NCBI GenBank assembly: GCA_028829895.1
Contig: JALGAQ010000009.1
Span: 2,790,001-2,854,000 of the forward strand
Source: Sinotaia quadrata
Lineage: Eukaryota; Mollusca; Gastropoda; Architaenioglossa; Viviparidae
Direction: 5' to 3'
Length of the DNA: 64,000 nt
In this document: piece by piece, positions 5,740 through 45,745 of the stretch
Numbering within the stretch: position 1 is the first letter of the stretch
Layout: each line of letters begins with the position of its first letter
Position numbers and translations under genes: made by a program
The notes under the pieces: model-generated
What the model saw: only the letters and a program-made list of their open reading frames with translations
What the model was told of the DNA's origin: nothing
Database searches by the model: none

Positions 5740-7302
5740 ACGATAGTGTTGTATTACATCGAGAACACCAACGCGCGCTATAGCACCTTCGTGGCCAATC
5801 GCCTGGCCACCATTCACGAGCTGTCCAGACCTGATCAGTGGCTACACGTAAGATCGGAACAGAACCCTGCCGACTTAGCCTCTAGTGGGACGACCTCGCT
5901 TGAAGCTATGTCAGAATGGTTATGAGGTCCTGAGTTTCTGTTGCAAGACGTTGGGGACTGGCCCGCACTAGAACGCAGCAAAATGCTGGTAGGAGAGCCA
6001 GAATGGAAGACGAGGACCGCAGCGGTCAACGCTATAAGGAGCAGAACGGGTGTCGCACGTATCGCCGAGCATTACTCCGAATGGACAAAAGCGTTGAAGG
6101 CACTGGTATGGTACGCGCAATTCAAAACCTTTCTCAGAATGTCTGTATCCAAGGACCCAGACATGCGCATAAAGTTAGGTCTACCCGAGCTGAGCGAACT
6201 GAGAAGCGCCGAGATAGACCTCATATGGGAGGTACAGTCGCAGGAGTACGCGGAAGAAACATCCGTTCTCGCCTCAGGGGCAAGCATCGAAAACAAACGA
6301 GCACTTAAGAAGCTCAAGGGTCTGAGCCCAGTACTGATGGATGGCGTTCTGCGCGTCGGCGGTAGGTTGCAGTACGCCGACTACCCACTATCTCGGATCC
6401 ATCCGATAATCCTGCCGAAGGCACACCACGTGACCGAACTGATTATTCAGCACTATCACCTCATGGAAGGGCACTCCGGATGTGCGCAAGTGTTGGCAGC
6501 TATACGCAAACGCTACTGGATCGTCCAAGGCTATGCAGCCGTCAAACGGGTCATCGGATCCTGCTTCGTATGCCGTAGGCTACAGGCGTCGCCGTCCGAG
6601 GAAGTCATGGCACCGATACCGGCAGTTAGGGCTCAGAAGGGCTGGCATCCTTTCAAACTGGTAGGCGTGGACTATTTCGGACCGATGTTAGTGAAACTCG
6701 GTAGGTGTCTTGAGAAGAGATATGGTTGTCAATTCACTTGTCTTCAAACCCGCGCGCTTCATCTGGAAGTGGTCCAATCCCTGACCACGGACTCGTTCAT
6801 CATGGCGTTAACCCGATTCATCGCGCGACGGGGCACCCCCGACGAGATATTCAGCGACAACGGGAGCAACTTCATTGGTGCAGAAGCCGAGCTAAAGTCA
6901 GCCCTAGGGGAGTTCTCGCAGAAAAGGATCAATGACCACCTACTGACCTACCCAGTGCAGTGGCACTTTAATCACCCGCTTGCGAGCCATCGAGGTGGGA
7001 TATGGGAACGAGTGATCCGATCAGTTAAGTTAGTCATTAACTCGCTATCACGAGAGCAAACGATGAGCGACGAATTACTAATGACGGTGATTGCAGAAGC
7101 AGAACGTATCCTGAACAACAGACCGTTGGTTCCAGTGAAGTCGGACGTTAAGGATCTGATGGCGCTATCACCCAATGATCTGTTATTACTTCGCGTGAAC
7201 GCGACGTCCATTGTAACCGCCTACCATGACCGCACGTTACGCGAAGCGGTGGCACCAAGCAAACTATCTGACGGAGCTATTCTGACGCAGGTGGATAGAT
7301 GA
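5740..7302 (+). pseudogene. BEL-A1 RNase H end and integrase
   Basis: After the stop at 5739 the RNase H tail ([20 protein letters not shown]) continues in frame to a TGA at 5923-5925, where A3 reads AGA. Next come the linker and an integrase with an H-x4-H / C-x2-C zinc site (HYHLMEGH ... CFVCRRLQ). The catalytic core has the first Asp in VGVDYFGPM, the second in FSDNGSNF, and the Glu in HRGGIWERVIRS; all three are intact in this copy. A one-base insertion near 7212 moves the frame, and the shifted frame ends at 7302. Integrase inserts the cDNA in the nucleus with 5-bp target duplications, as seen for related insertions in this window. Confidence 0.9.
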
Positions 7303-7566: not shown

Positions 7567-7666
7567 NNNNNNNNNNNNNNNNNNNNNNNNNNNNNNNNNN
7601 NNNNNNNNNNNNNNNNNNNNNNNNNNNNNNNNNNNNNNNNNNNNNNNNNNNNNNNNNNNNNNNNNN
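7567..7666. other. Assembly gap (100 N)
   Basis: Exactly 100 N, the usual placeholder for a gap of unknown size. The left side is BEL-A1 3' untranslated sequence; the right side is an unrelated reverse LINE fragment. The missing part should contain at least the A1 3' LTR. Confidence 0.98.
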
Positions 7667-9062: not shown

Positions 9063-9492
9063 TGAAGAAGAATCCAAGATTCATTCCCGTCCGTACCATG
9101 ACAAGCCCCAACCCTGTGATACCCCCGCCCTGATTGTTGCTATCCCCACCTTTGTTTTTATGGTGGGCTACCATCTTTATTCACTTTGACTTTTATCGCG
9201 GGAAAGTTACATCAAGAGCGTTCTCTCCGAGGTAACCTGTTTCTATTTTACTTATTTTGTGGACAAATTGCTTATAGACAATAACGGTTTAAGTGTTGAC
9301 ATTTACTTCTTTGCGTTGGTGTTACCTACTAACGTGCACCTTTGAGGTAATGTACATACCTTGTATTATTGTTTATTATTTAGAATCGCATAAATAGTGC
9401 CGATAGAATATTTGTATTCTTGTTGGACGGGACTAGCGCATCTCTCCAGGTTCTCTGCAACTCTGAGGCTCCTCCAACGGATAGGAGATACA
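9063..9492 (+). repeat. 5' LTR of BEL-A2
   Basis: It starts TGAAGAAGAATCC (other copies TGTAGAAGAATCC) and ends GGATAGGAGATACA. It is slightly shorter than 436 bp because of small deletions. ATTCTCAAAG follows. Confidence 0.88.
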
Positions 9493-9607
9493 ATTCTCAA
9501 AGGAGTTAGAATCCACAAGCCACTACCGACGTCAATACTTGGATTGACGAATTCTGAGCTGCTCAGAAACTTGGTCGACATCCAAAACTTGGTTTGGATA
9601 AGAAAAT

Positions 9608-10837
9608 TTGGCTTCCGAACAACCCTCGAAGACGATGTCAACGCCCAACAAATCTGGATCCGAGGAACGCGAGACGTCCGAGAAGACCCGGCAAGTCCTC
9701 GTTTCTATCCCCTCTGGTTTTATGGCTAGTTCATGTCATAAGTTAGGTGAAGATAGTAACGTTATGACCCCAGGTAGTCTCGACGTTTCAAGTAACGACG
9801 GTGCCTCAAGTGATAGCTATGTTAGTGAACGCAATCGAAAGGACCGAGCAAAAGCCCCCAAGCAAAATAGAAGACAGCCTGCTGCAGAGTCGTCCGATGA
9901 TGAGCCGAGCGACGAGGAAGACAAACTCTTAGCCCGATTGCAGCAGCTGCGTCTAAAGAAGAAAAGGCATCAAGAGAGAAGAAAAACTGAGTCCCATGCA
10001 CGCAAGCTCTATAGAGAGACCGCCTCGCCCGAAGTTAAGGTGAACGACAAGTTGCAACACGTACAACGGTACGTGATCCACTCGCCTACACCTCCCCAAA
10101 ACGACTATGCCTCCATCCCGAACAGATTCGATGGAAACCCGCGGCATTACTGGAAGTTTATGCAGCAGTTTCAATGCTTGATCGAACAGAGAGTGCCCGA
10201 TAGTTCACAGAGGTTGATGCACCTAATTAACCAGTGCACAGGACAGGCGCGTGAAGCCATATCCGAATGCTTCGGTGGGGATCCGGACAGTGATTACGCG
10301 ATGGCCAAGGACATTCTGTGGGACACCTATGGCAGGGACCATATGGTTACCACCGCCATTATAGATGATCTATTTAGTGGTCTGAAAAGGGTGCACAACG
10401 ATGCTGAGTCGCTCAGCGGGTTGGCCATCAGGATGCGTAACTGCCAGCTGGCTCTACGACATAGTAGACGGGAGGTGGAACTGGACACAGTCGCTAACCT
10501 AGAACGCATTGTTCGCACCCTGCCCGACGACTGTAGGCGTAGTTGGGCGAAACTAGCCGCCAAGAAGGCGGAAGCGAACGAAGATGTGACATTCACCGAC
10601 CTGTGCGCATTCGTCAAAAAAGAAGCACGTGTGCGGCGCGGGGCCTTCGGGAAATTCGTGGAAGCCCCGAGAGTCACGGAAAGAAGAGACACCGCGCCAG
10701 GGAGTGCTAGACGGTCTGACACTAGACCCCTTAGGGCAGGACCAGAAGGAAGACATTTCGCCACGCGAGGTGACACGGAAAACATCGAATGCCCGTTGTG
10801 CAGCCTAAAACATGGGTTGAAACACTGCGACGCGTAA
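9608..10837 (+). pseudogene. BEL-A2 Gag
   Basis: This 409-codon frame covers a charged N-terminus, a basic coiled stretch (LQQLRLKKKRHQERR), the DUF1759-like core (RFDGNPRHYWKFMQQFQ; AKDILWDTYGRDHMV) and the first zinc knuckle (CPLCSLKHGLKHC). It ends at TAA 10835-10837, where A3 has TAC, so the stop is a point mutation rather than the natural end of Gag. A short in-frame deletion before RFDGNP removes residues present in A1. Confidence 0.9.
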
Positions 10838-12329
10838 TTGCTTCTGTCTCTACATCAACGTTGGAGGGTCGTTCGGCGCAACCGTCTATGTTTTCGGAAA
10901 AGGTCACCGAAGCGAAATCTGTTCGAGCGGTAACACATGCGGCAATAAAGGATGCGATAAGCCACACCATCACATTCTGCATTGCGAGACGACACCGAAC
11001 CCCACCGATGCGAAGACAAACATATGTGGAGCGACGAACAGCCCAGCAGGTGGTTGCTTAGGAGTCATACCTTTGCGGATACACGGGCCCAAGAAGTCAC
11101 AAGTAGCGTATGCCCTCCAAGACAACGGGTCAGACATCACTCTTATAGAGGAAGACTTTGCCATACAACTAGGCCTAGTAGGGTCCACCACTACGCTTAG
11201 CATCACCTCCGTTCACGGTTCTTCTGGCATACGGTCGAAGAAGTTCGCGATGAAGGTCGCTGCTATGGATGGTTCCGATCATCTCGAGATCGATAATGCG
11301 TTCAGCGTACCTATGCTACCGATAGGTTCCGTAACCACGCCAGTTAGGGAGCACGCCAGCAACTGGAAACACATAGCGGGGATTGCCTTCGATCAAGCTT
11401 CGGACCACAAAATACGAATGTTAATCGGGACAGATGTGCCCGACGTCCACATTCCCCTGGAATGCAAGACCGGCAAATCGAAGGAAACGTTCGCCATCCG
11501 TACCCGACTAGGTTGGATCATGCTGGGCCCAGCGCGTCGAGCCGGGGATAGTCATGGGAGAGTAAACGTCATTCAAGGTAAAGCTTGTGTTTGCGATCAA
11601 CTCAAGACCCTGTACGACGCCGAATTCCAAGACACTGAGGGCAAGGAGCGAGAGTGCTCTGTAGAAGACAAGTTAGCCGTAGAATTAGTCTCAGAGTCGA
11701 TCACGATGAAAGAGGGACACTACGAACTAGCGCTGCCGTGGCGGACGAAACCGGCAGGACTACCTGACAACCGTCCAGCCGCATATAGTAGGCTCAGGAC
11801 CCTACGACGCCGTTTCCTGAGAGAAGAAGAATATTTCCGGATGTACTGCGAAAGCATGCGGAATAACATTGAAAAGGGATATGCCGTGCCGGTGCCCGGA
11901 GAGCAACTGCAAATCGAATACTCACCACGATGGTATCTGCCCCATCATGGAGTGACGAACCCCAAGAAACCCAATAAAGTCAGGGTGGTGCTGGACTGTG
12001 CAGCTAAATATAATGGTGTTTCTCTGAATGACTGCCTGTACCAAGGACGCGATACGACCGCCAGCCTGGTGGGTGTGCTTCTACGCTTCCGAATAGGTAC
12101 CATAGCTGTCGCCGCGGATATCGAAGAGATGTTCATGCAAGTACGGGTACCTATCGACGACCGCGGTGCATTGAGGTTCCTGTGGTGGGAAGGGGACGAC
12201 CTGCAAACCGAACCGAAAGAATACCAAATGCTGGCGCATTCTTTCGGCGCGACATCATCTCCCTTCTGCGCGAACTACGCACTTAGGCAGACCCTGCAAG
12301 ACTGGGGGGCGACTCCATACCTGAAGTGA
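10838..12329 (+). pseudogene. BEL-A2 second zinc knuckle, protease and RT fingers/palm
   Basis: The second zinc knuckle has lost 8 bases near 10893 relative to A3 (the part coding the ICL residues of CFICLGKGHRSEVC), shifting the frame. The protease reads LQDNGSDITLIEEDFA, with Gln in place of the Leu found in A1 and A3. The RT keeps GYAVPVPGEQ and VAADIEEMFMQVRV. The frame ends after the 6-G run at 12304-12309, one G short of the in-frame copy A3. Confidence 0.88.
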
Positions 12330-13132
12330 GGAACGCAGTGACGCAGAACTTCTACGTAGACGATTGCCTGGCATCCTTCAAAGATGTGCGTTTAGCCTCC
12401 CAGTTCGCAACACAGTTAACCGCCACATTGGAAAAGGGAGGGTTCAAACTTCGAAAATGGATAGCTAGTCACCCCGAGGCTCTCACGGGAATCGCGATCG
12501 AGGACAGAGTACCTTCACCGGTGAGACCCATAGACTCGGATGTGTGCGGGCTAGAACGCACGCTGGGATTAGAATGGGATTCTAAGTGTGACTGTTTCCA
12601 GTTCAAGCTCCTGTTTCCGGAATCTGCCAACACCAGAAGAGGCATACTGTCGACCGTGTCTACCCTCTTTGACCCACTAGGACTAGTTGCGCCCTTACTG
12701 CTACCAGCCAAGGCATTCCTACAAAAACTATGCAAGCAACGTTTAGAATGGGACGCAGCGATTAGTCAAGAAGAACTTAAGGAGTGGAGACTATGGTTAT
12801 CCACTATGCAAGAGTTAGGCACCCTTCGGATACCTAGGTGTTTAGGACGGGAAACCGGAGAAGCTGAGAACACACAGTTGCACGTGTTCTGCGACGCGTC
12901 CGAGATCGGTTACGGGACGGCGCTATATGTCAGATACGAAACGATGGATCGAATTCATTGCTCCCTGTTAATAGCGAAATCGAGAGTAGGTCGCTTGAAG
13001 ATCGTGACAATCCCTAGATTGGAGCTCAACGCGGCCAGGTTAGCCGTTCAGGTAGCCAAGTTCGTACGTGAGGAGATGGACACCACGATCGACGAAATGT
13101 TCTACTGGACCGGTTCAACGATAATATTGTAG
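12326..13132 (+). pseudogene. BEL-A2 RT catalytic box to RNase H
   Basis: This encodes [20 protein letters not shown], the thumb region and RNase H (FCDASEIGYGTALYVRY; IPRLELNAARLAVQVA). It ends at TAG 13130-13132, where A1 and A3 read TAT (Tyr). The RT box itself is intact, so the loss of function comes from frame and stop changes. Confidence 0.88.
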
Positions 13133-14910
13133 TACATCGAGAACACCGATGCGCGCTATAGCACCTTTGTGGCAAATCGCCTAGCCTCCATTCACGAGCT
13201 GTCCAGGCCAGTTGCGACACGTAAGATCGGAACAGAACCCAGCCGACTTAGCCTCTATAGGGACGACTTCGCATGAAGCTATCTCAGAATGATTTATAGG
13301 TCCCGAGTTTCTGTGGCAAGACGTTAGTGACTGGCCCGCACTAGAACGCAGCAAGACGCCGGTAGTGGAGCTAGAGTGGAAGACGAGGACCGCAGCGGTC
13401 AACGCCATAGTGAGCAGCAGAGTGTCACACGTATTTCTCAGCATTACTCCGAATGGACAAGGGCACTAAAGGCGCTGGCTTGGTTTGCGCGATTCAAAAC
13501 CTTCCTCCGAATGTCCATATCCAAGGACCCAGACATGCGCCTAAAGTTAGGTCTACCCGAGCTAAGCGAACTGAGAAGCGCCGAGATAGACCTCATACGG
13601 GAGGTACAAGCGCGGGAGTACGCGGAAGAAATATCCGTTCTCGCCTCAGGGGCAAGCATCGAAAACAAACGGGCACTTAAGAAGCTCAAGGGTCTGAGCC
13701 CAGTACTGATGTATGGCGTTCTGCGCGTCGGCGGTAGGTTGCAGTACGCCGACTACCCACTATCTCGGATCCATCCGATAATCCTGCCGAAGGCACACCA
13801 CGTGACCGAACTGATTATCCGGCATTATCACCTTATGGAAGGGCACTCCGGATGTCGAAAGTGTTGGCAGCTATACGCAAACGCTACTGGATCTTCCAAG
13901 ACTATGCCGCCGTCAAACGAATCACCGGATCTTGCTTCGTATGCCGTAGGCTACAGGCGTCGCCGTCCGAGCAAGTCATGGCACCGATACCGGCAGTTAG
14001 GGCTCAGAAGGGTTGGCACCCTTTCAAACTGGTAGGCGTAGACTACTTCGGACCGATGTTAGTGAAACGCGGTAGGTGTCTTGAGAAGAGATATGGTTGT
14101 CTATTCACTTGTCTTCAAACCCTCGCGCTTCACCTGGAAGTGGTCCAATCCCTGACCACGGACTCGTTCATCATGGCGTTAACCCGATTCATTGCGCGAC
14201 GGGGCACCCCAGACGAGATATTCAGCGACAACCGAAGCAACTTCATAAATGCAGAAGCCGAGCTAAAGTTAGCCCTAGGGGAGTTCTCCCAGAAAGGGAT
14301 CAATGACCACCTACTGACCTACCCAGTGCAGTGGCACTTTAATCCTCCGCTTGCCGGTCATCGAGGTGGGATATGGGAACGAGTGATCCGATCAGTTAAG
14401 TTAGTCATTAACTCGCTGTCACGAGAGCAAACGATGAGCGACGAAGTACTAATGACGGTGATTGCAGAAGCAGAACGAATCCTGAACAACAGGCCGTTGG
14501 TTCCAGTGAAGTCCGACGTTAAGAATCTGATGGCGCTATCACCTAATGATCTGTTGTTACTTCGCGTGAACGCGACGTCCATTGAACCGCCGACCATGAC
14601 CGCACGTTACGCGAAGCGGTGGCACCAAGCAAACTATCTGACGGAGCTCTTCTGGCGCAGGTAGTTAGATGAGTACCTGCCCACGCTGATAGCGAGACAG
14701 AAGTGGGTGATGCAGAAAAGGAACCTCCGACCGGGCGACGTGGTACTGCTGATCAACGAACAAATGCCGCGTGACAAATGACCGCTGGGTGTAGTGGATA
14801 CCTGCGAGATATCGAACGACGGGGCGGTTAGGGGGGTGGTAGTCAGAACCAAGGATGGCTGTCTGCGGCGGGACATAAGGAAGATATGTCTGATAGAAGG
14901 CTGCGAGTAG
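13133..14910 (+). pseudogene. BEL-A2 RNase H end and integrase, several frame breaks
   Basis: The integrase zinc site and core can be followed through two overlapping frames (13376-14035 and 13852-14664), shifted by a small indel near 13855 (GGATGTCGAAAG versus GGATGTGCGCAAG in A3). The first Asp is kept (VGVDYFGPM) and the Glu is kept (HRGGIWERVIRS). Next to the second Asp, FSDNGSNF has become FSDNRSNF. The C-terminal domain contains two Trp-to-stop changes (14662-14664 and near 14779). Confidence 0.85.
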
Positions 14911-15129
14911 GTAGGTTGTTGTCGCTCGAGTCTCTAAGGGGCTGGCTCCCGCTGTTGTAGCGAGAGTTATAATTGTACTATTTCAGTGTGAGCCAGCGCA
15001 GAGCACAGCCGTAGGCGGTGGGCGGCGGCGACAACCCAGATGTTAGGGGGGCTGATAAGGGGCGCGAGTAGTCTAGCATGAGCTAGCCTGCCAGGGGGGA
15101 CTTTAAATCGTGACCGATTTGGGGGGCGG
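14911..15129 (+). promoter_or_regulatory. A2 3' untranslated region: conserved hairpin, acceptor-like motif, polypurine tract
   Basis: GCTGGCTC at 14941-14948 can pair with GAGCCAGC at 14990-14997, enclosing a small CGCT/AGCG stem. Just before the right arm is TACTATTTCAG (14976-14986), which looks like a 3' splice site. A G-rich run (GATTTGGGGGGCGG) abuts the 3' LTR and is the likely plus-strand primer. The hairpin is kept in A3, B1, B2, B3 and N. Confidence 0.65.
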
Positions 15130-15556
15130 TGTAGAAGAATCCAAGATTCATTCCCGTCCGTGCCACGACAAGCCCCAACCCTGTGATACCCCCCGCCCCG
15201 ATTGTTGCTATCCCCACTTTTGTTTTAATGGTGGGTTACACCACCATCTTTATTCACTTTGACTTTTATCGCGGGACAGTTACATCAAGAGCGTTCGCTC
15301 CGAGGTAACCTGTTTCTATTTTACTTATTTTGTGGACAAATTGCTTATAGACAATAACGGTTTAAGCGTTGACATTTACTTCTTTGCGTTGGTGTTACCT
15401 ACTAACGTGAACCTTTGAGGTAATGTACATACCTTGTATTATTGTTTATTATTTAGAATCGCATAAATAGTGCCGATAGAATATTTGTATTCTTGTTGGA
15501 CGGGACTAGCGCATCTCTCCAGGTTCTCTGCAACTCTGAGGCTCCTATCAACGGAG
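15130..15556 (+). repeat. 3' LTR of BEL-A2, end truncated
   Basis: It starts TGTAGAAGAATCCAAG after the polypurine tract and aligns with the 5' LTR to TATCAACGG, then changes to foreign sequence without the final ATAGGAGATACA. The junction is to the flank duplicated at 8852. Confidence 0.85.
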
Positions 15557-15637
15557 AGGATTTCGGCTAATCACTTCCATCAGTAATTTATTTTTGGTAA
15601 CCAAACTCAGTTTACGTTCAGATTACATTAGGTTTGG
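15557..15637 (+). repeat. Second copy of the duplicated flank
   Basis: GGCTAATCACTTCCATCAGT and following bases match 8852-8924, leading into a B-type LTR in both places. Confidence 0.8.
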
Positions 15638-16058
15638 TGTAAAGAAATTTCCCTGTGCATGCCTGAACTCCTGATCCTGCTACCCACTATCCCCCATGTT
15701 GACCTGACCTTTTATTTAATTTTCTACCGCTATGTTTGACTACACTTTCGTATTGGTCGTTTACCGGCGTGAGTGGGCATGTTGTCTTGAGCAAGTGTCC
15801 TGTTCTATTTTGTATTCTAATAACTCTTTATAGTTGTGTCTGTCATCAGAAACTATTCAACTTATTAGAGGTCTCGGAGGTGTAATCAAACCTTTGAGGT
15901 TTATATCCTTGTGTAATTATTATTTTTTTATCTTAGAATCGCATGAACCTTTCAGTCGAGAAACTTGGTTCTTGATTGTTATCCATTTGGCGCATATCTC
16001 CCGGCTTGCAATACCTGCTTGGCAGAGGAAACGTTTATGTGATTAAACTTTTTCTACA
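15638..16058 (+). repeat. 5' LTR of B1 (421 bp)
   Basis: It starts TGTAAAGAAATTTCCCTGTG and ends TTTTTCTACA, and is followed by ATTCTCAAAG. The same ends bound the 430-bp LTRs of B3. Confidence 0.85.
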
Positions 16059-16103
16059 ATTCTCAAAGTGTTGACCTCCCCAAAACTTGGTTTGTGAAAG
16101 AAC

Positions 16104-17212
16104 ATGGGAACCGAACACTCGTATGACGTAACGGCGTCACTTGATCGCCTGGATTTCCCTGATGGAGTACCAACGTTCATACAGAAGACTCGGCAATTCC
16201 CCATTTTAACTTTTTCTGTTGACAAACCTGGTTCATGTCCCACTATAAGACAACCTCACTTAGTTGGTAATAATCTTAGTAGTGGGTATGAGGCGAGGGA
16301 TACGACGAAGCTGGGTACTCGGGCCAAGCAAATTTTGATGCAGAAAGGGCCGAAAAACGATAAGGAAAACGTCGCCTTCTAGAGGAACTGGAGATTATGG
16401 ATCGGGATGACGCCATATTTCGAGCAAATTCCCGTTCCGAGACCTTCGGACTGAGCTGTGAAAGCCGCATGGAGCCAATGGTGAATGAGCAGTTGACCTA
16501 TGTGAAGAGGTACACCATAGAATCGCGGCAACTCTCTCTCCTCGATCGGCCTGAACGCGCTTAGGGCAAGTTTGCCTAGATTAGAAACGGTGGAGTCCTG
16601 CTCTTCTCCGCCCTTAAATGATCGCGCTCCTAACCTATTCAAACCGCACGTGCCCCAAGTAGTTCTTCCACAGTTCGACGGGAACCCCAAGCATTATTCG
16701 AAGTTTATGGAACAGTTGGTTGAGCAGAGAGTATTAGACAACGGGATTAGACAGGTGTATTTGATGAATCAATGCACAGGTTTAGCGCGAGAAGCTATAT
16801 CTACATGCTTTGGGAATGATCCCGGACGTGGCTAGGTCACTACGAAAGAGATTCTTAGCAACCTCTTTGATAGGGATCATATGGTGAGGAAGACCATAAT
16901 CCAGGATTTATACAGAGGGCTGCATAAAACTCACGACGATGCAGACTCATTGGCATTGCTAGCAATGTGTATGAGGAAATGCCAATTATCTCTACAGCAA
17001 AAGGGAGACGAGGCCGAAATGGACAGAATGACGCATTTGGAACGTATCGTGTGTACTCTACACGACGATGCTAGCCGCAGTTGGGCATGGATGGCCAACA
17101 GCAAGATGGACAATTGGGAGAATGTGACTTTCTTAGACCAATGTATATTTGTTGATAGGGAAGCTCAGATTAGACAGTGCGTATGTGGTAATGTTACTGA
17201 ACCAAGGATGTT
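16104..17212 (+). pseudogene. B1 Gag
   Basis: The N-terminus (LDFPDGVPTFIQKTRQFPIL, then SVDKPGSCPTIRQPHLVG) matches the B3 Gag N-terminus at 36658-37083 on the other strand. After stops and frame changes around 16380-16580 the core follows: LPQFDGNPKHYSKFMEQL, YLMNQCTGLAREAISTCFGN and RKCQLSLQQKGDEAEMDRM. This is the same fold region as the family A Gag. A TAG near 16833 and the N-terminal frameshifts make it non-coding today. Confidence 0.82.
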
Positions 17213-17217
17213 GGTGC

Positions 17218-17653
17218 TGTAGAAGAATCCAAGATTCATTCCCGTCCGTGCCACGACAAGCCCCAACCCTGTGATACCCCCGCCCTGATTGTTGCTATCC
17301 CCACCTTTGTTTTTATGGTGGGCTACACCACCATCTTTGTTCACTTTGACTTTTATTGCGGAAAAGTTACATCAAGAGCGTTCTCTCCGAGGTAACCTGT
17401 TTCTATTTTACTTATTTTGTGGACAAATTGCTTATAGACAATAACGGTTTAAGTGTTGACATTTACTTCTTTGCGTTGGTGTTACCTACTAACGTGAACC
17501 TTTGAGGTAATGTACATACCTTGTATTATTGTTTATTATTTAGAATCGCATGAATAGTGCCGATAGAATATTTGTATTCTTGTTGGACGGGACTAGCGCA
17601 TCTCTCCAGGTTCTCTGCAACTCTGAGGCTCCTATCAACGGATAGGAGATACA
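17218..17653 (+). repeat. Solo LTR of family A inserted in B1, target duplication GGTGC
   Basis: A complete 436-bp A LTR (TGTAGAAGAATCC to GGATAGGAGATACA) with GGTGC at both 17213-17217 and 17654-17658. Homologous B2 sequence lacks it at the same place (about 28886). The left and right halves of B1 rejoin across it. Confidence 0.93.
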
Positions 17654-17658
17654 GGTGC

Positions 17659-18464
17659 AACGAGGCCAGCCTCGCGAGAATGCGATAAGACATTTTGATA
17701 CGAGACCTTATTAGACAGGAGTAGAAGAACAGCCATTCATAGCAAAAGCGACGCTTGACGACGCTGCAGTCGAGGCTGAGTTGGACCCTGAGACCGAATT
17801 GGAGTTGATGCGTGAAGCAGGTGACAATGCTGTTTTGGCTCATATACCACTCTTATCGGTGGATTCGGTAGTTCCAGAGTCCCAGTATGAGGGTTTCGGG
17901 TATTCTGATTTCATTGTTTCCCCTCCAATTGTGCAACCTACGGAGGTTATATTGCCTTCTTTTCTGCCCGTAAAAGCAGATATGGTAACTGAGAATGATG
18001 TTAGCTCTTCGAACGACGTAGTTTATAATATTTTGTTGCATGACGAATCTCATTTTCATTGTTATTCTGCTGCGGGATTAGGCGACATCCCTAAACCGTT
18101 CGACTCTCATCACGCTGGGGCAACCGTTTTCTCGAGACCTCATTTCGATTATTTTGAACGGTTTTCTGCGGAATATATCTCTGGTGCTGTTCATGACTCA
18201 GATTTAATTCATACACATAAGGTGGCCTTTGAAGAATCTTTAAGAAATTCTTGGCGATCAGACGCTCTTATTGGTCGCGCAGTCGACGCCTCATGTCCCG
18301 AAGTGAATCACGCTGTGCTATCTCTCCAGGGTGCAACGAACGAGGAATGGCCGCGCCCAAATAATTCATCGCATTATGGAAAGGAACAATCGTTGGTGAA
18401 CTTCATTTGTGGTTAACGGGATATAATAAGAAGTACGTCTTTAACAGAAGGCTGCGAGTAGGAA
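17659..18464 (+). CDS. Domain X, copy X1 (unrecognised acidic, Ser-rich region of a BEL-like element)
   Basis: The long open part is 17781-18416 (211 codons), and the same frame continues to about 18464. It is entered from gag sequence (RHFDTRPY, then a TAG near 17713). Recognisable blocks shared with X2, X3 and X4 in order: HIPLLSVDSV; an ILPSFLPVKAD block; ENDVSSSNDVV; GDIPKPFDSH; a FDYFERFSAE block; HDSDLIHTHKVAFEESL; SDALIGRA; EWPRPNNSSHYGKE. The composition is acidic and serine-rich, with few cysteines, no signal peptide, no membrane segment and no zinc site. I do not recognise the family. It occupies the place of RT-RNase H-integrase. It could be a captured host exon or a structural extension of Gag. 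It still has few stops in this copy. Confidence 0.6.
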
Positions 18465-18777
18465 ATCGGTTGTAGTCGCTCACGTCTCTAAGGGGCTGGC
18501 TCCCGCTCTTGTAGCAAAAGTTATGATTATACTATTTCAGCTTGTACCAACGCAGTTCACAGCCGGGAGTCGGTTGTCGCCGCCCGAGTCCTTGGGGGAT
18601 TGGCCTATGCTGTTGTAGCAAGAGTTATAATCGTACTATTTCAGCTCAGCCAATGTAAGGAAAAGCCGTAGGTTCGGTGGGCGGTGGCATCAACCTTAAG
18701 TCTAGCTGGGGGATGATGTTTAGGGGACGTTGAACCAGGTCCACAGAGAGTTGAAATGTGGACGATTTGGTAAGCGG
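18465..18777 (+). promoter_or_regulatory. B1 3' untranslated region with tandem hairpin unit and polypurine tract
   Basis: Two tandem versions of the A-type hairpin region occur (about 18480-18560 and 18590-18690). In the second, ATTGGC at 18599-18604 pairs with GCCAAT at 18649-18654, where A copies have CTGGC/GCCAG-type arms. Both versions carry a TACTATTTCAG motif. A purine-rich stretch precedes the LTR at 18778. Confidence 0.6.
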
Positions 18778-18885
18778 TGTAAAGAAATTTCCTTGTGCAT
18801 GCCTCGACTCCCGATCCTGCTACCCACTATCCCCCATATTGACCTGACCTTTGTTTTATTTACTTTTCTACCGCTATGTTTGACT
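18778..18885 (+). repeat. 3' LTR of B1, truncated
   Basis: TGTAAAGAAATTTCCTTGTG and following match the first ~108 bases of B LTRs, then switch at about 18881-18886 to gypsy D integrase sequence on the other strand. The junction has only a few bases of shared sequence. Confidence 0.85.
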
Positions 18886-19283
18886 GGAATACCGTACAGT
18901 GATACCCATGATTCCATAAAAGCACGGGCGACGGGGTCTGCAGAGGTATCAGGTAGGGGGCAGGCCTGTGGCCATCTGTAGTATCTGTCGACACAAGTCA
19001 GGATATGTGAATATCCTCTGGATGGCGAGAGTGGTCTGACGAGGTTATTATGCACTTGACGGAACCGAGCGTCTGGTTATGGAAAAGTCGTTGGAGGATT
19101 AGTGGTATTACGGTGAATTTTACTCCGATGACAGGGAACACAGACTTTAGCCCAATGGCGAATGTCGATGTGCAACTTCGGCCACACGAAACGGTCCACA
19201 ATCAGCTTGCATGTTGACCGGATACTTGGGTGCGATAACGAATAGAAACGATCGTAAACTTTCCGTCGCAAAGATGTGGGCAC
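18886..19283 (-). pseudogene. D1 integrase, zinc domain and start of core, truncated
   Basis: The minus strand has the HHCC-type zinc region (SHPSIRSTCKLI ... VCVPCHRSKIHRNT) at 19283-19085. After a small frame break comes the catalytic core start with HILTCVDRYYRWPQACPLPD, holding the first catalytic Asp. The core ends at SLYGIPV, where the element is cut and joined to the B1 LTR. The second Asp, the Glu and the C-terminal region are missing here. Confidence 0.86.
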
Positions 19284-28256: not shown

Positions 28257-28872
28257 GGGTTCAACTCCCTCTGCCCTTCTTAGATGATTATTGTCCTACC
28301 CAATTCAAACCGCACCTGCCTCAAGCATATTTTCCACGGTTCGACGGGAACCCCATTCATTATTGTAAGCTTATTGAACAGTTCGAATAATTGTTTGAAC
28401 ACAGAGTATTGGACAACGGGCTAAAACTGGTGTATTTGACGAATCAGTGTACAGGTTTAACGCGATAAGCTATCTCCGAATGCTTTAGGAATGATCCCGA
28501 ACGTGATTACGCCACGGCGAAGGAGATCTTTAGGAATGGGTTTGATAGGGATTATATAGTGACGAAGGCCATAATCCGGGATTTTTACAGAGCGCTGAAG
28601 AAAACTCAGGAAGACGCAGACTCCTTGGCAATGCAATGTTTATGCGGAAATGCCAATTGGCTCTCCAGCAAAAGGGTTGCGAGGCCGAAATGAACACGAT
28701 GACGAATTCGGAACGTATCGTGTGTACTATACCCGATGACGCCAGGTGCAATTGGGCATGGATGGCCAACGGCAAGATAGACGAAGGTGACGAGGTGACC
28801 TTCATTGACCTGCGTATATTTGTGAGCAAGCAAGCTTGGATTAGACGGCGCGTCTGTGGTGAAGTTATTTAA
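28257..28872 (+). pseudogene. B2 Gag core
   Basis: It aligns with B1 16600-17190. The block IPDDARCNWAWMANGKIDEG and RKCQLALQQKGCEAEMNTM are in one frame (28636-28872). Upstream parts (FDGNP, NQCTGL) are in other frames with stops. The end VCGEVI is followed by TAA at 28870-28872. Confidence 0.78.
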
Positions 28873-29668
28873 CCATCGGAAATGTTGGAACGATGAGATT
28901 AGCATCGCGAAAACTCGATAAGACTTTTTGATACGAGATCTTATCAAACAGGAGTAGAAGAACGACTGTTTACAGCTAAAGCAACTCTGGAGACTGATTT
29001 TGAGTGGACCCTTGAAGCTGCTATGCTGTTTTGTCTCATGTGCCACTCTTATCAGAAGATTTAGTCGCTCCACGGTTCCAGTATGGCGGGTTCGTATCTT
29101 TCGATTTCATTGCGTTCCCGCCAGTTTTGCAAACCACAAGGGTTAAATTGCCTTCCTTTCTCTCTGTCAAAGCGGATACTATGCCTGAGGATGATATTAA
29201 CTTTTCGTGATTGCCAACGTTTCGTTGCAGAAAGAATCTCATTTTTCTTGTGATTCTAACGCGGGATTAGGCTATATTTCAAGCCGTTCGACTCTCATTG
29301 TTTGGGGTAACCGGTTTCGCGGGATTGTATTTCGATAATTTGGAACAGTATTCTCCGGAAAGTGGCTCTGGTGCTGCTCTGGACTCAGATTTACTTTCTG
29401 CTCATAAAGTTGTGGCTATGACCTTGGAATTATATTCAATAAATTCGCAGCTATCAGACACTTTCATTGATCGAGCGTTCGAAGTTTGAGGTTCAGATAT
29501 GAATTAGTCGGCGCTCCCACGTCATGTTGGAATGATCAAGGAATTGCCACGTCCAAATATCTCACCGTATTATGGCAAGTAACAAACGTCGAGGTTTGAT
29601 GTTGTTGATCTTCATTTGGGGGTTAATGGGATTAAATAACAAAGAGGTATATAATAGAAGGGCGCGAG
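28873..29668 (+). pseudogene. Domain X, copy X2
   Basis: Blocks matching X1, X3 and X4: SHVPLLSEDLV, FPPVLQTTRVKLPSFLSVKA, DTMPEDDINFS, FDNLEQYSPESGSGAALDSD (29331-29390), LLSAHKV and ELPRPNISPYYGK near 29550. It ends with DVVDLHLGVNG. Several stops and frame changes interrupt it. It is the most decayed X copy, yet the blocks remain readable. Confidence 0.7.
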
Positions 29669-31380: not shown

Positions 31381-31634
31381 GTGAGATGTCCTATCATTAC
31401 CATTTTCAGAACTGAAAGAACTTCAAACAATCAAAATAATAAAACCGATGAAGCAGCAGACCAAGACAAACTCCGAGTGGGGCGATTCGAATTTGGTAAT
31501 GAAACACTCGGGGAAGAACTAGCTGCCTTGCCTTATGAAATATGGGAGCAAGAGAATATTCCGTCCTCAACGTCAGAATCCATCGTGATTCCCGTCTTTA
31601 AACAAAGATTACGTACTGTGCGTAGTAACCACCG
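31381..31634 (+). pseudogene. LINE reverse transcriptase, first part (split by B3)
   Basis: It encodes EELAALPYEIWEQENIPSST, then ESIVIPVFKQRLRT and SNH. This is the RT segment that in many LINEs reads IW...E..P..W..SIVIP.FKKG...SNHRGISL. The B3 element with its CACCG duplication interrupts the codons right after SNH. The frame resumes at 37607. Confidence 0.82.
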
Positions 31635-32064
31635 TGTAGAAAGCGTTTAACCAGATAAACGATTCTTCTACCAAGCAGGTACTGCAAGCCGGGAGATATG
31701 CGCCAAATCGATATCAATCAAGAACCAAGTATCTCGACTGAAAGGGTTTATGCGATTCTATGAGATAAAATAATAATAACTGTACAAAAATACAAACCTC
31801 AAAGGTTTGAACACACACTCCGAGACCTCTTGTAAGTTGGATTGTTTACTGATCACAGATACAACTGTAAACAGTTAGTAAAATACAATATTCAACGGGC
31901 CAGTTGCTCAGGACAGCAATGCTCATTAACGCCTGTAAACGACCAATACAAAAATGCAGTTGAACATGGCGGTAGAACATCAAAATAAACAAGGGATCAG
32001 GTCAATTTAGGGGGTAGGAGGTACAGCATAGGGAGTTGTGGCTTTCACATGGGAATTCTTTACA
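31635..32064 (-). repeat. 3' LTR of B3 (430 bp)
   Basis: On the minus strand it starts TGTAAAGAATTCCC after the purine tract and ends TTTCTACA. It is nearly identical to the 5' LTR at 37177. Confidence 0.9.
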
Positions 32065-32298: not shown

Positions 32299-33138
32299 TC
32301 AGCATCTTAGAGAATCCAGCGACCACAACCAACATATATCTCGCAGCCTTCTGTTAAGCACATCCTTCTTTCTGCCTCGCGTTAACCCCAAATAAAGATC
32401 AACAGCATCACATCTTGATAAATTTACTTTGCCATAATACGGTGAGGCATGTGGGCGTGGCGATTCCTCGCGGGATCCAACATGTCGAGGTAGCTCAGAC
32501 TGAATTACATCGGGACCTGAAACGTTGGACGTGTAATAAACGAGAGCGTCTGAGAGTAGCGAATTTATGGAAGATTCTTCAAAGGTCACAGCCTCAACAT
32601 TATGTTTAGAAAGTAAATCCGAGCCGAGAGCAACACAAGAGCTACATTCCGGAGAAAATTGTCTCAAAGGATCGAAATAAAGTCGCGTGGTACCGGTTGT
32701 CTCAACGCGATTAGTGTCGAACGGCTTAGAAATATTGGTTAATCCCGCGGTAGATTCACCATAAAAATTATATTCTTCTTGTAACCCAACGTTGGCAATC
32801 ACGTCCTTCGAAGAGCTAACCTCATCTACAGGCATAGTATTTGCTTTGACAGGTAGAAAGGAAGGCACTTTAACCCTTGAGGATTGCACAAATGAAGACT
32901 AGCAACCTTCCTTCTGGGACCGTTGAACGATCAAGTCCTCCGATAAAGGTAGTATATGAGACAAAACAACACAATCACCAGCTTCAAGAGTCAAATCAAA
33001 ATCAGTATCAGTTTCAAATGCTTCACCTGCGATTTCAGCAAGAGTCACTTCAGAACCAGTTAATAACTCTCGTTCGTGTTTACGCAAAGATGCCTTTTCA
33101 AGTGCCCCTTCCTCCAAACCTTCAGACTCGCGTGTGAC
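32299..33138 (-). CDS. Domain X, copy X3
   Basis: Two long frames (33117-32899 and 32889-32299) are separated by a single break near 32900. Order of blocks: EEGALEKASLRKHERELLTG, VTLAEIAGEA, LSHILPLSEDLIVQRSQ, then VKVPSFLPVKANTMP, DEVSSSKDVIANVGLQEE, ISKPFDTNR, YFDPLRQFSPECSS, VALGSDLLSKHNVEAVTFEE, LPRHVGSREESPRP, PYYGK and DVLNRRLRDI. It is in frame with the protease except for a TAA near 33124, so the ancestor was a Gag-PR-X polyprotein. The X region is about 270 residues, acidic and serine-rich, without a known domain. It stands exactly where RT begins in family A (after DTEG). Confidence 0.65.
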
Positions 33139-33717
33139 TTACGACTCAGCCCCTGCGCCTTCTGTATCTTCAAAGTCCGCCTCATTCAATACTTTCAGAT
33201 GCCGTTGAATAGATGAGTCGGACTGAATGGCGTTCACCCTACGGTCACTGGCATTCGAGGGACCCATTGGCCCTAACAAAATCCAACCCAGCCTTGTACG
33301 AACGGCATAAAGCTCCTTCCGTTTCCCCGACCGGCATTCCAAGGGTCTGTGGGCGTCTGGTACATCTGATCCAATCAGGATTTTGATGTTCGATTCTGCT
33401 AGTTTCTGGAGATCAACATGTTTTAAATGTTTCCACCTGCTGGAGTAGTCGACAGTCGGGTTAGACGTGCATCCTATCGGCAACTTAGACACTCTAAATG
33501 CGTTAGGGATGTCCACCCTACCTTTACCGTTTGTCGAAGTTACTTTCAAGCTGCATTTGGTAGAGTTGAGGGAAGTCGAGCCTGCGGCCGTTGAGATATT
33601 CAGAGACGTCTTGACTCCATTGACAACAAGGGCTCGGACTATCTCCTCATCGATCAACGTAACGTCGGAGCCATTATCTAAAATCGCGTTGACCACCAGC
33701 GTCTTCTTGCGACCCAC
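33139..33717 (-). pseudogene. B3 aspartic protease (BEL DUF1758-like)
   Basis: The minus strand has NAILDNGSDVTLIDEEIV, IPNAFRVSKLPIGC, IKILIGSDVPDAHRPLEC and VRTRLGWILLGPMGP, block for block the family A protease (about 45% identical by eye). The active-site motif is DNGSD in both. It ends at LNEADFEDTEGAGAES, then a stop, then X. The frame is open for 192 codons and looks well kept. Confidence 0.85.
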
Positions 33718-34638
33718 AATGCAAACCGCAACATACCTGAGGAGACCTTACTATGCTTGCCCAATCCGGTCGAATCACACATGATAGCTGTATAGCTGAC
33801 ATCTTCTTGTTTGACACTATGCAGCAGGCGATGGTGATGCGCCTTTCATCCGCCTACTTCGCAGTATTTATCCACAGAGCATACTTCGCTCCTGTGACCG
33901 TTCTTAACACATACGAAGCAGACCCGATAGTGTCCCACCAAGGACCATCGTTGAGTTAAACTGATCTTGAGAAAAGCGTAGCAGGAATCCAATTCATGAG
34001 GCTTTCGACAGAGCACGCACCGCTCTTCTTTTCCCTCTGTGGAGAACTGTCCTCACCCGAAACGAACCTGAGTCGCTCGGTCTAGGTGTCTCCTTTCCTG
34101 GCTGCGGCTCTCGCCATACTGGAACCGGCGCCTGGAAAACCGATCAAACCTCCCCTGCATAACTTGCGACTCTTCCTCAACAAACTTGCATAGATCCATG
34201 AAGTTGACATCGCTCTTCATTCGGGACCTTTCGTGGACAAATCTGGCCCAACCTCTTCTGGCATCATCGGGGAGTGTTTCCACGATCTTCTCTAGAGTCG
34301 CCAAGGCGTCCAGCTCTCCGGAACGATTTCTTTCCTGCAAGGCGATGTAGCAATCACGCATTCGGTTAGCCAAACACGACAGTGATTCGGAACTGTCATG
34401 TTGCTTCGTGAGATCCTTTAATAGGACTTCTACGATCGCATCAGCGACCAACTGATCCCTACCGCACAGATTCTCAAGCAGCTCACACGCCAGTGCCTAA
34501 CCATGGGGCGCATCTCGAACCTGAATCCCTGAGATGGCTTCCTTCGCTTGCACGACGCAATAGTGTTTGAGGTATTGCAGTCTCGTGCCATCATCGGTTA
34601 CGCAATGTTCAACAAAGTACCGAAACTGGCTGACGAAC
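33718..34638 (-). pseudogene. B3 Gag core and zinc knuckles
   Basis: The minus strand from 34638 has YFVEHCVTDDGTRLQYLKHY and AKEAISG. After a break, 34451-34053 has a core including KIVETLPDDARRGWARFVHE and VNFMDLCKFVEEESQVMQGR. At 34040-33840 the zinc region reads CVLCRKPHELDSC and CFVCVKNGHRSEVC, two intact knuckles. A Cys-to-stop change (TGA) follows in VGG*. The family A counterpart is at 2950-3560. Confidence 0.82.
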
Positions 34639-35074
34639 TGTATCTCCTATCCGTTGATAGGAGCCTCAGAGTTGCAGAGAACCTGGAGAGATGCGCTAGT
34701 CCCGTCCAACAAGAATACAAATATTCTATCGCCACTATTTATGCGATTCTAAATAATAAACAATAATCCAAGGTATGTACATTACCTCAAAGGTTCACGT
34801 TAGTAGGTAACACCAACGCAAAGAAGTAAATGCCAACGCTTAAACCGTTATTGTCTATAAGCAATTTGTCCACAAAATAAGTAAAATAGAAACAGGTTAC
34901 CTCGGAGCGAATGCTCTTGATGTAACTGTCCCGCGATAAAAGTCAAAGTGAACAAAGATGGTGGTGTAGCCCACCATTAAAACAAAGGTGGGGATAGCAA
35001 CAATCAGGGCAAGGGTATCACAGGGTTGGGGCTTGTCGTGGCACGGATGTGAATGAATCTTGGATTCTTCTACA
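34639..35074 (-). repeat. 3' LTR of N (A type, 436 bp)
   Basis: On the minus strand TGTAGAAGAATCCAAG to GATAGGAGATACA. It is next to the polypurine tract at 35075-35095 and the target duplication at 34634-34638. Confidence 0.92.
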
Positions 35075-35282: not shown

Positions 35283-36112
35283 CTACATCCCACCTACTCG
35301 CAGCCTTCTGTTAAACACGTCTTTCTTATCGCATCCCGTCAGCTCCAAATGAAGATCAACCACATCGTATCTTGATGATTGTTCTTTGCCATTAAACAGT
35401 GATATATTCGGGCGTGGCAATTCCTCACTCCGTCTCAAATGACGAAGTAGCGCGGACTGATTTACATCGGGGCCTGAAACGTTAAACGTCCAATCGAAGA
35501 TAGCATCTGCAAATGGCGAATTCATTGAAGATTCTTCAAAGGCCACAGCCTCAACCTTACGTGTAGAAAGTAAGTCTGAGTCAAAAGCAGCACTAGAGCT
35601 GCGTTCCGGAGAAAAACTGTTCCAAATGATCGAAATAAAATCCCGTGGAACCAGTTGCCTCAAAACGATGAGAGTCTAACGGCTTAGAAATATTGCCTGT
35701 TCCCGCCGCAGAATCATAAGAAAAACGAGAATTTCCCTGTAGCCATACGTTGGCTACCGCATCCTTCGAAGAGCTAACGTCATCTTCAGGTATAGCACCT
35801 GCATTGATAGGCGAAGAAGAGCATTTCTCAACTGATGACACAACACCCGCATCCCGAGACCGTGAAACGATCAAGTTCTCCGATAGTGGTGGCACATGAG
35901 ATGAAGTAACATACTCACTGGCTTTAAGCGTCGAATCACAATCAATCTCAGTCTTCCAATCAGCCTCGGTTCTACATGCCTCATCTGCAATCTCAGCAAG
36001 GGTCACGTCGGAATCAGTTAATAGCTCAGTTTCGGATTCACGCAAAGATGCCTTGTCAGGTGCACCTTCCTCTACAACTTCGGCCTCGCAAGGCACCAAC
36101 GACTCAGCCCTG
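35283..36112 (-). CDS. Domain X, copy X4
   Basis: Two overlapping frames cover it, 36099-35593 and 35663-35283, offset by one indel near 35620. Blocks: EVVEEGAPDKASLRESE, VTLAEIADEA, SSHVPPLSENLIVSRSRD, EDDVSSSKDAVANVWLQ, ISKPLDSHRFEATGSTGFYF, FSPERSSSAAFDSDLLST, KVEAVAFEESSMNS, FNVSGPDVNQSALLRHLR, EELPRPNISLFNGKE, DVVDLHLELTGCDKKDVFNR. This is the longest readable version and includes two segments (after DEA and after SRSRD) that X3 lacks. No known domain is recognised. Confidence 0.68.
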
Positions 36113-36232: not shown

Positions 36233-36620
36233 TCAGATGCGCTAGTCCCGTCCAACAAGAATACAAATATTCTATCGCCACTATTTATGCGATTCTAAAT
36301 AATAAAAAATAATCCAAGGTATGTACATTACCTCAAAGGTTCACGTTAGTAGGTAACACCAACGCAAAGAAGTAAATGCCAACGCTTAAACCGTTATTGT
36401 CTATAAGCAATTTGTCCACAAAATAAGTAAAATAGAAACAGGTTACCTCGGAGCGAATGCTCTTGATGTAACTGTCCCGCGATAAAAGTCAAAGTGAACA
36501 AAGATGGTGGTGTAGCGCACCATTAAAACAAAGGTGGGGATAGCAACAATCAGGGCGGGGGTATCACAGGGTTGGGGCTTGTCGTGGCACGGATGTGAAT
36601 GAATCTTGGATTCTTCTACA
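36233..36620 (-). repeat. 5' LTR of N, last ~48 bp deleted
   Basis: The minus strand starts TGTAGAAGAATCC at 36620 and stops at GACTAGCGCATC, before TCTCCAGG. It is nearly identical to the N 3' LTR over the shared length. Confidence 0.9.
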
Positions 36621-36625
36621 CGAAC

Positions 36626-37176
36626 TACCAGTACTTGCGTGGGTGCCCGTCGAAGGACTACACCGTTTCTAATCGAGGTAAGTTGGCCCTAATCGCCGTC
36701 AGGTCAATCGAGGAGGAGGGGATTTGCGGTGAGTTTATGGTGTACCGATTCACATGACGCAACCGATCATTGATTCGAATCGGCTCCAATCGGTCCGCTG
36801 ATCTGAGTTCTACTCCTCCAGAGCAGGGGCTAGCACGCTCTATCGCTTCTTCTTGCTCAATGCTTGATAGACGCGCTAGAAGTCGCCGTTTTTCTGCTTG
36901 CCGATCTTCCGCACTCTTGACCGGGAAATTCCTCGGGTCGCTATGTTCGAAGTCATCAATCTTCGGATAGTTGGAATTACGAAATCTAAGGCTATCGTAC
37001 TGGTGAGGCCAACTAATTATAGGACATGAACCAGGGTTGTCAACAGAAGAGGTTAAAAAGGGGACTTGCCGTACCTTCTGCATGAACCTGGGTTATCCGT
37101 CAGGGAAGTCCAAACAATCCAACGACAAAGTCATGTCTCGGCTCCAAAGATCTTTCCCAAACCAAGTTTTGGGAAT
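36626..37176 (-). pseudogene. B3 Gag N-terminal part and leader
   Basis: The minus frame 37083-36658 reads MQKVRQVPFLTSSVDNPGSC, KRRLLARLSSIEQEEAIERA, RINDRLRHVNRYTINSPQIP and ANLPRLETV, then a TAG and SFDGHPRKYW up to N. It matches the B1 Gag start. The leader between LTR and ATG contains ATTCCCAAAACTTGG in the primer-binding position. Confidence 0.8.
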
Positions 37177-37606
37177 TGTAGAAAGCGTTTAACCAGATAA
37201 ACGATTCTTCTGCCAAGCAGGTACTGCAAGCCGGGAGATATGCGCCAAATCGATATCAATCAAGAACCAAGTATCTCGACTGAAAGGGTTTATGCGATTC
37301 TATGAGATAAAATAATAATAACTGTACAAAAATACAAACCTCAAAGGTTTGAACACACACTCCGAGACCTCTTGTAAGTTGGATTGTTTACTGATCACAG
37401 ATACAACTGTAAACAGTTAGTAAAATACAATATTCAACGGGCCACTTGCTCAGGACAGCAATGCTCACCAACGCCTGTAAACGACCAATACAAAAATGCA
37501 GTTGAACATGGCGGTAAAACATCAAAATAAACAAGGGGTCAGGTCAATTTAGGGGGTAGGAGGTACAGCATAGGGAGTTGGGGCATTCACAGGGAACTTC
37601 TTTACA
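37177..37606 (-). repeat. 5' LTR of B3 (430 bp)
   Basis: The minus strand runs TGTAAAGAAGTTCCC to GCTTTCTACA. It differs from the 3' LTR at only a few positions. The right target duplication CACCG is 37607-37611. Confidence 0.9.
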
Positions 37607-37611
37607 CACCG

Positions 37612-41453: not shown

Positions 41454-41553
41454 NNNNNNNNNNNNNNNNNNNNNNNNNNNNNNNNNNNNNNNNNNNNNNN
41501 NNNNNNNNNNNNNNNNNNNNNNNNNNNNNNNNNNNNNNNNNNNNNNNNNNNNN
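41454..41553. other. Assembly gap (100 N)
   Basis: A 100-N placeholder. The left is CR1 RT; the right starts inside A3 Gag (RAGPEGRHFATRGDTENIEY). Confidence 0.98.
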
Positions 41554-44542: not shown

Positions 44543-45745
44543 GTGGATGGCGTTCGGCGCGTCGGCGGTAGGTTGCAGTACGCCGACTACCCACTATCTC
44601 GGATCCATCCGATAATCCTGCCGAAGGCACACCACGTGACCAAACTGATTATCCGGCATTATCACCTTATGGAAGGGCACTCCGGATGTGCGCAAGTGTT
44701 GGCAGCTATACGCAAACGCTACTGGATCGTCCAAGGTTATGCCGCCGTAAAACGAATCATCGGATCTTGCTTCGAATGCCGTAGGCTACAGGCGTCGCCG
44801 TTTGAACAAGTCATGACACAGATACCAGCGGTTAGGGCTCAGAAGGGTTGGCATCCATTCAAATTGGTAGGCGTAGTCTACTTCGGACCGATGTTAGTGA
44901 AACGTAGTAAGTGTCTTGAGAAGAGATATGGTTGTCTATTCACTTGTCTTCAAACCCGCGCGGTTCACCTGGAAGTGGCCCAATCCCTGACCACGGACTC
45001 ATTCATCATGGCGTTAACCCGATTCATCGCGCGACGGGGCACTCCCGACGAGATATTCAGCGACAATGGAAGCAAATTCATCGGTGCAGAAGCCGAGCTA
45101 AAGTTAGCCTTAGTGGACTTCTCGCAGAAAAGTATCAATGACCACCTACTGACCTACCCAGTGCAGTGGCACTTTAATCCTCCGCTTGCGAGTCATCGAG
45201 GTGGGATATGGGAACGAGTGATCCGATCAGTTAAGTTAGTCATTAACTCGCTATCACGAGAGCAAACGATGAGCAACGAAATACTAATGACGGTGATTAC
45301 CGAAGCAGAACGAATCCTGAACAACAGGCCGTTGGTTCCAGTGAAGTCCGACGTTAAGGATCTGATAGCGCCATCACCTAATGATCTGTTGTTACTTCGC
45401 GTGAACACGTCGTCCATTTTACCGCCGACCATGACCGCACGTTACGCGAAGAGGTGGCACCAAGCAAACTATCTGACGGAGCTCTTCTGGCGCAGGTGGA
45501 TGGATGAGTACCTGCCCACGCTGATAGCGAGACAGAAGTGGGTGCTGCAGCAAAGGAACCTCCGACCGGGCGACGTGGTACTGCTGATCAACGAACAAAT
45601 GCCGCGCGACAAATGGCCGCTGGGTGTAATGGATACCTGCCAGGTATCGAACGACGGGGCGGTTAGGGGGGTGGTAGTCAGAACCAGGGATGGCTGTCTG
45701 CGGCGGGACATAAGGAAGATATGTCTGATAGAAGGCTGCGAGTAG
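44543..45745 (+). pseudogene. A3 integrase, full-length frame with catalytic Asp changed to Val
   Basis: This open frame of 400 codons runs to the natural Pol end (IEGCE, stop 45743-45745). The zinc site is HYHLMEGH ... CFECRRLQ. The first catalytic Asp is lost: A1 and A2 read VGVDYFGPM, A3 reads VGVVYFGPM. The second Asp (DNGSKF) and the Glu (GGIWERVIRS) remain. The C-terminal LRPGDVVLLINEQMPRDKWP is intact. The same D-to-V change occurs in A4. It would make a full-length protein that is not expected to catalyse integration. Confidence 0.9.

Follow-up and report, generated by a model that had tools for sequence, protein, structure and literature searches.

An acidic region occupies the place of reverse transcriptase, RNase H and integrase in a group of BEL/Pao retrotransposons on one contig of the Sinotaia quadrata assembly

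The 64-kb stretch of DNA analysed here (hereafter the window) is part of contig C26 (6.16 Mb) of a 984 Mb assembly. It contains several copies of a BEL retrotransposon, with frames for Gag–protease–RT, RNase H and integrase, along with a related region, X, which occurs four times; this raises the question of what X is and why it is found where reverse transcriptase (RT) would be expected. The initial annotation had described X as an acidic region without a recognisable domain that replaces RT, RNase H and integrase in a BEL-like element group. Our analysis indicates that X is probably the C-terminal part of a Gag–protease–X or Gag–X polyprotein, made by non-autonomous BEL/Pao retrotransposons whose enzymes would be supplied in trans.

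Pairwise DNA alignment bore out the presence of four homologous copies: X1 (17659–18464) and X2 (28873–29668) on the plus strand, and X3 (32299–33138) and X4 (35283–36112) on the minus strand. X3 was 74% identical to X4 over about 1 kb, 69% identical to X1 and 73% identical to X2, and X1 and X2 shared 68% identity. The ordered blocks that had been named for X were seen in these alignments. When the copies were compared with X3, 1–4 stop-containing codon pairs were present in the X frame, as against 18–37 in the other two frames.

X had been reported to begin directly behind the protease, where RT would begin, with one stop or indel per copy at the junction. The position held for X3 and X4; X1 and X2 are instead fused straight to the end of Gag, and the zinc-knuckle and the protease are absent. 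The number of frame breaks was an undercount, because X3 has two in-frame stops (one at the protease–X junction and one at about 32,899), X4 has lost 1 nt at the junction and gained 1 nt at about 35,605, and X2 has several breaks.

X3 and X4 belong to two nested elements on the minus strand: the X4 element has inserted into the Gag of the element that carries X3. In the outer element, X3 follows the reading frame of the protease (33139–33747), which contains an LDNGSD motif and gave a weak match to Asp_protease_2 (E 0.011, below the cut-off). The Gag frame is split by the inner element into a first part at 36658–37092 and a second part at 34053–34496. The 5′ and 3′ LTRs of the outer element (37177–37606 and 31635–32064, both of family A) are 97.4% identical over 431 nt and are flanked by the target site duplication (TSD) CGGTG at 37607–37611 and 31630–31634. 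The inner element has a shortened 5′ LTR of family B at 36236–36620 and a 3′ LTR of the same family at 34639–35074, which are 99.0% identical over 387 nt and flanked by the TSD GTTCG at 36621–36625 and 34634–34638. It has suffered a deletion from inside the 5′ LTR to the end of the protease, which has removed its Gag and the greater part of its protease.

The other two X elements lie on the plus strand. The X1 element has a 5′ LTR of family A (15636–16067), Gag (16613–17204) and the incomplete start of a family-A 3′ LTR (18776–18886), and a solo LTR of family B (17218–17654) has inserted between Gag and X1. The X2 element has Gag at 28279–28872. Elsewhere in the window, between 21381 and 26115, a 300-nt unit occurs three times and a further unit twice, at 100% identity and a spacing of 2217–2218 nt; either a stretch resembling Gag/protease has been duplicated in tandem, or the duplication was made in assembly. 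Two blocks of exactly 100 N, at 7567–7666 and 41454–41553, are probably assembly gaps, and an Rfam search of the window gave no match.

Two autonomous-type BEL copies are present on the plus strand. The first (2146–7302) has a Gag–PR–RT frame at 2146–4947 followed by frames for RNase H and integrase, and its family is the likely enzyme donor for the X elements; the second (9063–15560) carries LTRs of family B at both ends. Matches to the Pao peptidase (PF05380) at C26:2795254 and 2802632 fall within these two copies. Sinbad and other BEL/Pao elements have an LTR, a Gag with Cys-His boxes, a protease and then pol (PMC554778, in part). The autonomous-type copies show the same order with pol at the same place, whereas the X elements are without RT, RNase H and integrase and have X there instead.

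When X3 was searched against the entire assembly, 90 matches were obtained, all on contig C26 (99 of 99 candidates scored); one copy can yield more than one match. Classification covered 40 fetched stretches and the window, which together gave 49 X stretches. Upstream of X, we found the protease in 30 of the 49 stretches, the Gag capsid block directly in 14 and no usable block in 5, with the two tandem X copies of L013 taken as a single stretch. There are therefore two architectures, Gag–protease–X and Gag–X. Of the 30 stretches behind a protease, 22 begin 24–26 nt behind one common protease block. Downstream of X, as surveyed by tblastn with RT, RNase H and integrase and by listing the features that lie beyond a point 120 nt short of the end of X, there was a 3′ UTR in 45 stretches, an LTR in one, no feature in two and RNase H–integrase remnants in one. 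Thus, 46 of the 49 X stretches lead straight into the 3′ end of the element (3′ UTR or LTR), which agrees with the proposal that X stands in place of RT–RNase H–integrase. The statement that X is never followed by pol was dropped after a wider check gave the one exception, at L015:796–1602 (within the stretch L015:38–1602), where remnants of RNase H and integrase lie immediately behind X, with no RT between. X and part of pol can therefore share one stretch, and this copy may be a recombinant or the relic of an earlier stage.

Copies with X open in frame do exist in the genome, in L009 and L015. L009 has a single frame of 682 aa running from Gag through the end of X, between LTRs that are 99.05% identical. 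In L015, a frame of 690 aa opens in the capsid region, takes in zinc-knuckle and protease and reaches the end of X; the start of Gag lies in an overlapping frame of 309 aa. Open frames of 557 and 556 aa were present in L014 and L016, respectively, the former exiting X before its end. In L014, X begins where the autonomous ORF begins RT: CSVEDKMAKALVAES precedes X, and CSVKDKLAVELVSES precedes the autonomous RT. Two rearranged loci were also observed. In L013:2742–4541, an X-containing stretch is tandemly duplicated (89.6% over 904 nt), and L025 has two oppositely oriented X copies, each with a 170-aa Gag frame of like start, which looks like an inverted duplication.

These counts bear on the idea that X is an artefact of the assembly or of translating decayed noncoding DNA. 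Several C26 loci do contain 100-N gaps, and the composition of C26 is unlike that of the rest of the assembly, but the occurrence of X in 49 stretches, most of the protease-linked ones at the same distance behind the same block, the TSDs and near-identical LTRs, and the number of separate insertions make an artefact barely credible.

The X elements are derived from BEL elements but are not complete ones, as in 46 of the 49 stretches X gives way to the 3′ UTR or an LTR where RT, RNase H and integrase would be expected. Capsid and protease blocks of BEL-type Gag and aspartic protease were found beside X by tblastn; Gag and protease align with those of the autonomous copy, with the LDNGSD motif in both. 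What is gone extends from the start of RT to the last 11–13 codons of pol. Towards the 3′ end, the elements become homologous to the autonomous element at window position 14875 or 45703–45710, about 11–13 codons before the pol stop; the terminal ~90 nt of X thus correspond to the end of autonomous pol, read in a different frame.

The elements nevertheless retain LTRs, a primer site and a polypurine tract, and they have made 5-bp target duplications. Some of the loci inspected, though not all, yielded a pair of LTRs. The TSDs matched at 5 of 5 bases in L010, L011, L012, X3 and X4 and at 4 of 5 in L009; in L013, a check for a TSD found none. The primer site starts with ATTCTCAA in the family-B elements and in L009–L013, and with ATTCCCAA in X3. 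Some of the insertions are recent, as seen from the identity of their LTR pairs (99.05% in L009, 99.3% in L010 and 100% in L012). Recent insertion of elements without pol implies that the enzymes came from elsewhere, and X elements probably borrow them from intact relatives. L012, with its identical LTRs and broken Gag–X frame, fits proteins acting in trans.

For the X4-type elements, the ends point to a particular partner. All four hybrids of this type (L015, L016, L018 and L022) match the autonomous copy at 9063–15560 up to position 10759 and again from 14875, at 88–96% identity, and carry a foreign zinc-knuckle–protease–X between these two junctions. The LTR, the 5′ part of Gag and the 3′ end of the subfamily are thus all those of the neighbouring autonomous BEL family, and trans-mobilisation is therefore the best explanation. 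Judged from these common ends, that family would be the obvious donor of the enzymes by which the partner is inferred to mobilise the X4-type elements. For elements with family-A LTRs, no autonomous owner of that LTR came up in the present comparisons. According to the mechanism that we propose, X-element RNA would be packaged and then copied with RT and integrase from the autonomous family, and template switching between co-packaged RNAs could give rise to hybrids and spread X among protease backbones.

Exchange of this kind is consistent with a comparison of distances in X and in the protease, for which we used 26 of the 49 stretches (X span of at least 600 nt and adjoining protease span above 420 nt). 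The two sets of distances were partially correlated only (Spearman 0.55, 26 copies). Between L014 and L028, the distance was 0.07 in X but 0.44 in the protease, and between X3 and L014 it was 0.11 in X and 0.43 in the protease. These clashes show that X was carried onto diverged backbones, or that backbones were exchanged under X.

We then asked what kind of protein X would be. The acidic character was confirmed, with net charges of −18 to −28 in L009, L014, L015, L019 and X1; the X3 slice, which is truncated, came out at −1. X also lacks a membrane segment, since the maximum 19-residue hydropathy reached only 1.24 in six slices; by the same value, it does not look like a third ORF of the Env type, which is marked by such a segment. 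In profile searches, no Pfam family reached the cut-off, in agreement with the claim that X has no known domain; DUF7344 (E 0.05–0.08) and Phage_lysozyme (0.022) were far below it and were treated as chance matches. A search of the PDB with X gave no match. No relative was found in a set of 5.8 billion proteins, which is uninformative because a search with the canonical BEL ORF drew a blank as well, and the 42 pattern stretches in viral contigs included no relative. It is therefore very unlikely that X represents a known retroelement domain, such as Env, integrase or RNase H, in diverged form: its place at the C-terminal end of the polyprotein would suit such a domain, but it has neither a membrane segment nor a profile match, and the pol matches reported by tblastn at the loci searched fall behind X and not within it. 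An AlphaFold model of X had a mean pLDDT of 39.6, which is no proof of disorder because the alignment consisted of only four pieces.

Conservation of blocks between diverged copies had been read as a sign of past selection on the protein. This reading was poorly supported. By pairwise GY94 analysis, dN/dS of X was 0.56–0.87 in nine pairs, below 1 at p < 0.05 in three of them and not distinguishable from 1 in the other six or in any of ten fits to closer pairs (0.67–2.02). Block conservation as proof of protein selection was rejected after dN/dS had been estimated with a transition–transversion model. The two wrong frames of X gave 1.27–1.56 (six fits from three pairs; p 0.06–0.35, none distinguishable from 1). 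For the protease, seven of ten fits lay at 0.05–0.27, two closer pairs gave 0.34 and 0.47 and one fit was saturated; for Gag, four of six lay at 0.06–0.09 and two were saturated. Together, 11 of these 16 Gag and protease fits fell at 0.05–0.27. Among the closer pairs, the protease gave 0.39–0.75 (six fits, three at p < 0.05) and Gag 0.37–0.90 (four fits, none at p < 0.05). A counting method, which ignores transition bias, gave 0.39–1.85 for X and, for the window copies, 0.64–0.89 in the X frame and 0.67–0.97 in the wrong frames. IQ-TREE codon runs in the X frame showed small log-likelihood gains over a run meant to fix omega at 1 (1.5 with 14 copies, 2.1 with 8 open copies) and were set aside.

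A different signal came from the openness of the frame. In copies picked as open, no stop was seen in the X frame where neutral simulation predicted 3.7–7.2 (four comparisons), and the internal indels, of 9, 15, 18, 39 and 81 nt, were all in threes; because the copies had been chosen for an open X, this supports but does not prove a selected frame. Openness of X is preserved better than its sequence, which is weakly constrained. X looks to be translated, probably as a disordered acidic tail in which length and frame would count for more than the residues.

The same data must be weighed for the view that X is a non-functional leftover or filler, open by descent, with any role being as RNA, in packaging or spacing. 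The ratios near 1, the broken Gag–X frame of L012 between identical LTRs and the origin of the terminal ~90 nt as an out-of-frame pol tail would all suit a filler. Against this, stops are absent and indels in phase, with the bias noted above, dN/dS is below 1 only in the X frame, and the frame is open through X in both architectures, so that we consider a filler rather unlikely.

As to where X came from, our guess is that pol was replaced by a captured foreign sequence. There are defective retroviruses in which host sequence takes the place of pol behind Gag, and by analogy X might be a captured piece of a host gene. The sharp replacement of pol, the in-frame fusion of X to Gag or protease in open copies and the restriction of homology with the autonomous element to the last ~90 nt are as expected from such an event. 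However, no source gene was found, as all 90 matches in the assembly are on C26 and the 49 stretches inspected were element copies or parts of them, nor was there a Pfam or PDB match for X. Capture of a host gene is thus possible but doubtful.

The origin of C26 itself bears on this question. That confinement to one contig is due to X was rejected, as other sequences behave alike: all 68 matches to PF05380 were on C26 (84 of 84 candidates scored), as were, among the matches listed, 58 of 58 for the BEL ORF (49 of 450 candidates scored) and 105 of 105 for another retroelement ORF (85 of 3601 candidates scored), which we take to be RTE-like. Actin matches were on C1, C2, C4, C5, C6 and C7, with none on C26. 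The CpG observed/expected ratio on C26 ranged from 0.93 in 6 kb of sampled sequence to 0.99 in the window, compared with 0.62 in the eight large contigs (10.5 kb of samples), where actin loci reached 0.84. The contig looks foreign to the assembly: it may come from a second animal present in the sample, or else represent a sex-limited chromosome, and this uncertainty restricts what can be said of the host and of where X originated. The actin search also showed a cluster of about a dozen actin genes at C2:101.69–102.25 Mb, for which match ends suggest a common intron near codon 41–42.

Among known non-autonomous LTR elements, some contain noncoding filler and others encode only Gag. The TR-GAG elements of plants are LTR elements that encode Gag and no pol; the X elements likewise have Gag without pol, but often retain the protease, share a common extra domain fused to it and are of the BEL/Pao type. 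Du et al. (2010) reportedly described LTR swapping between autonomous and nonautonomous elements in soybean, and, judged by the title, those elements resemble the X elements in exchanging LTRs with an autonomous family. The grass centromeric retrotransposons noaCR5-Sb and CR2-Sb-B belong to Ty3/gypsy. They are non-autonomous, with many recombinants (PMC4079200, in part), and are like the X elements in that they lack RT and integrase or have them truncated (CR2-Sb-B) and in that prolific hybrids arose as relatives recombined. They differ in coming from plants and from another superfamily, and the part of PMC4079200 drawn on here does not mention an unrelated in-frame domain replacing pol. Bdelloid LTR-retrotransposons have captured ORF3s that are modular and common to diverse retroelements (PMC5408684, in part); there, the ORF3 is added to gag and pol, whereas X replaces pol. 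A literature search, itself weak, found no published BEL/Pao element of the X kind.

Here, at least two architectures have one extra in-frame domain in common where pol would be, and have retained it despite loss of the protease, exchange of LTRs and swaps of backbone. X could be a selected, fast-evolving accessory domain that enables the pol-less Gag or Gag–protease to co-assemble with, or compete for, the particles of the autonomous element, with X and not the backbone as the heritable unit that spreads between backbones by recombination. We regard this as unlikely; if it were true, the X elements would be the parasite of a parasite. The results also carry a warning that block conservation between element copies is by itself no evidence of protein function. 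With X as the probable C-terminal part of a polyprotein of non-autonomous elements, the elements form a natural series in which to study which functions a retroelement mobilised in trans still has to encode itself, and whether a tail can be selected for openness and not for sequence.
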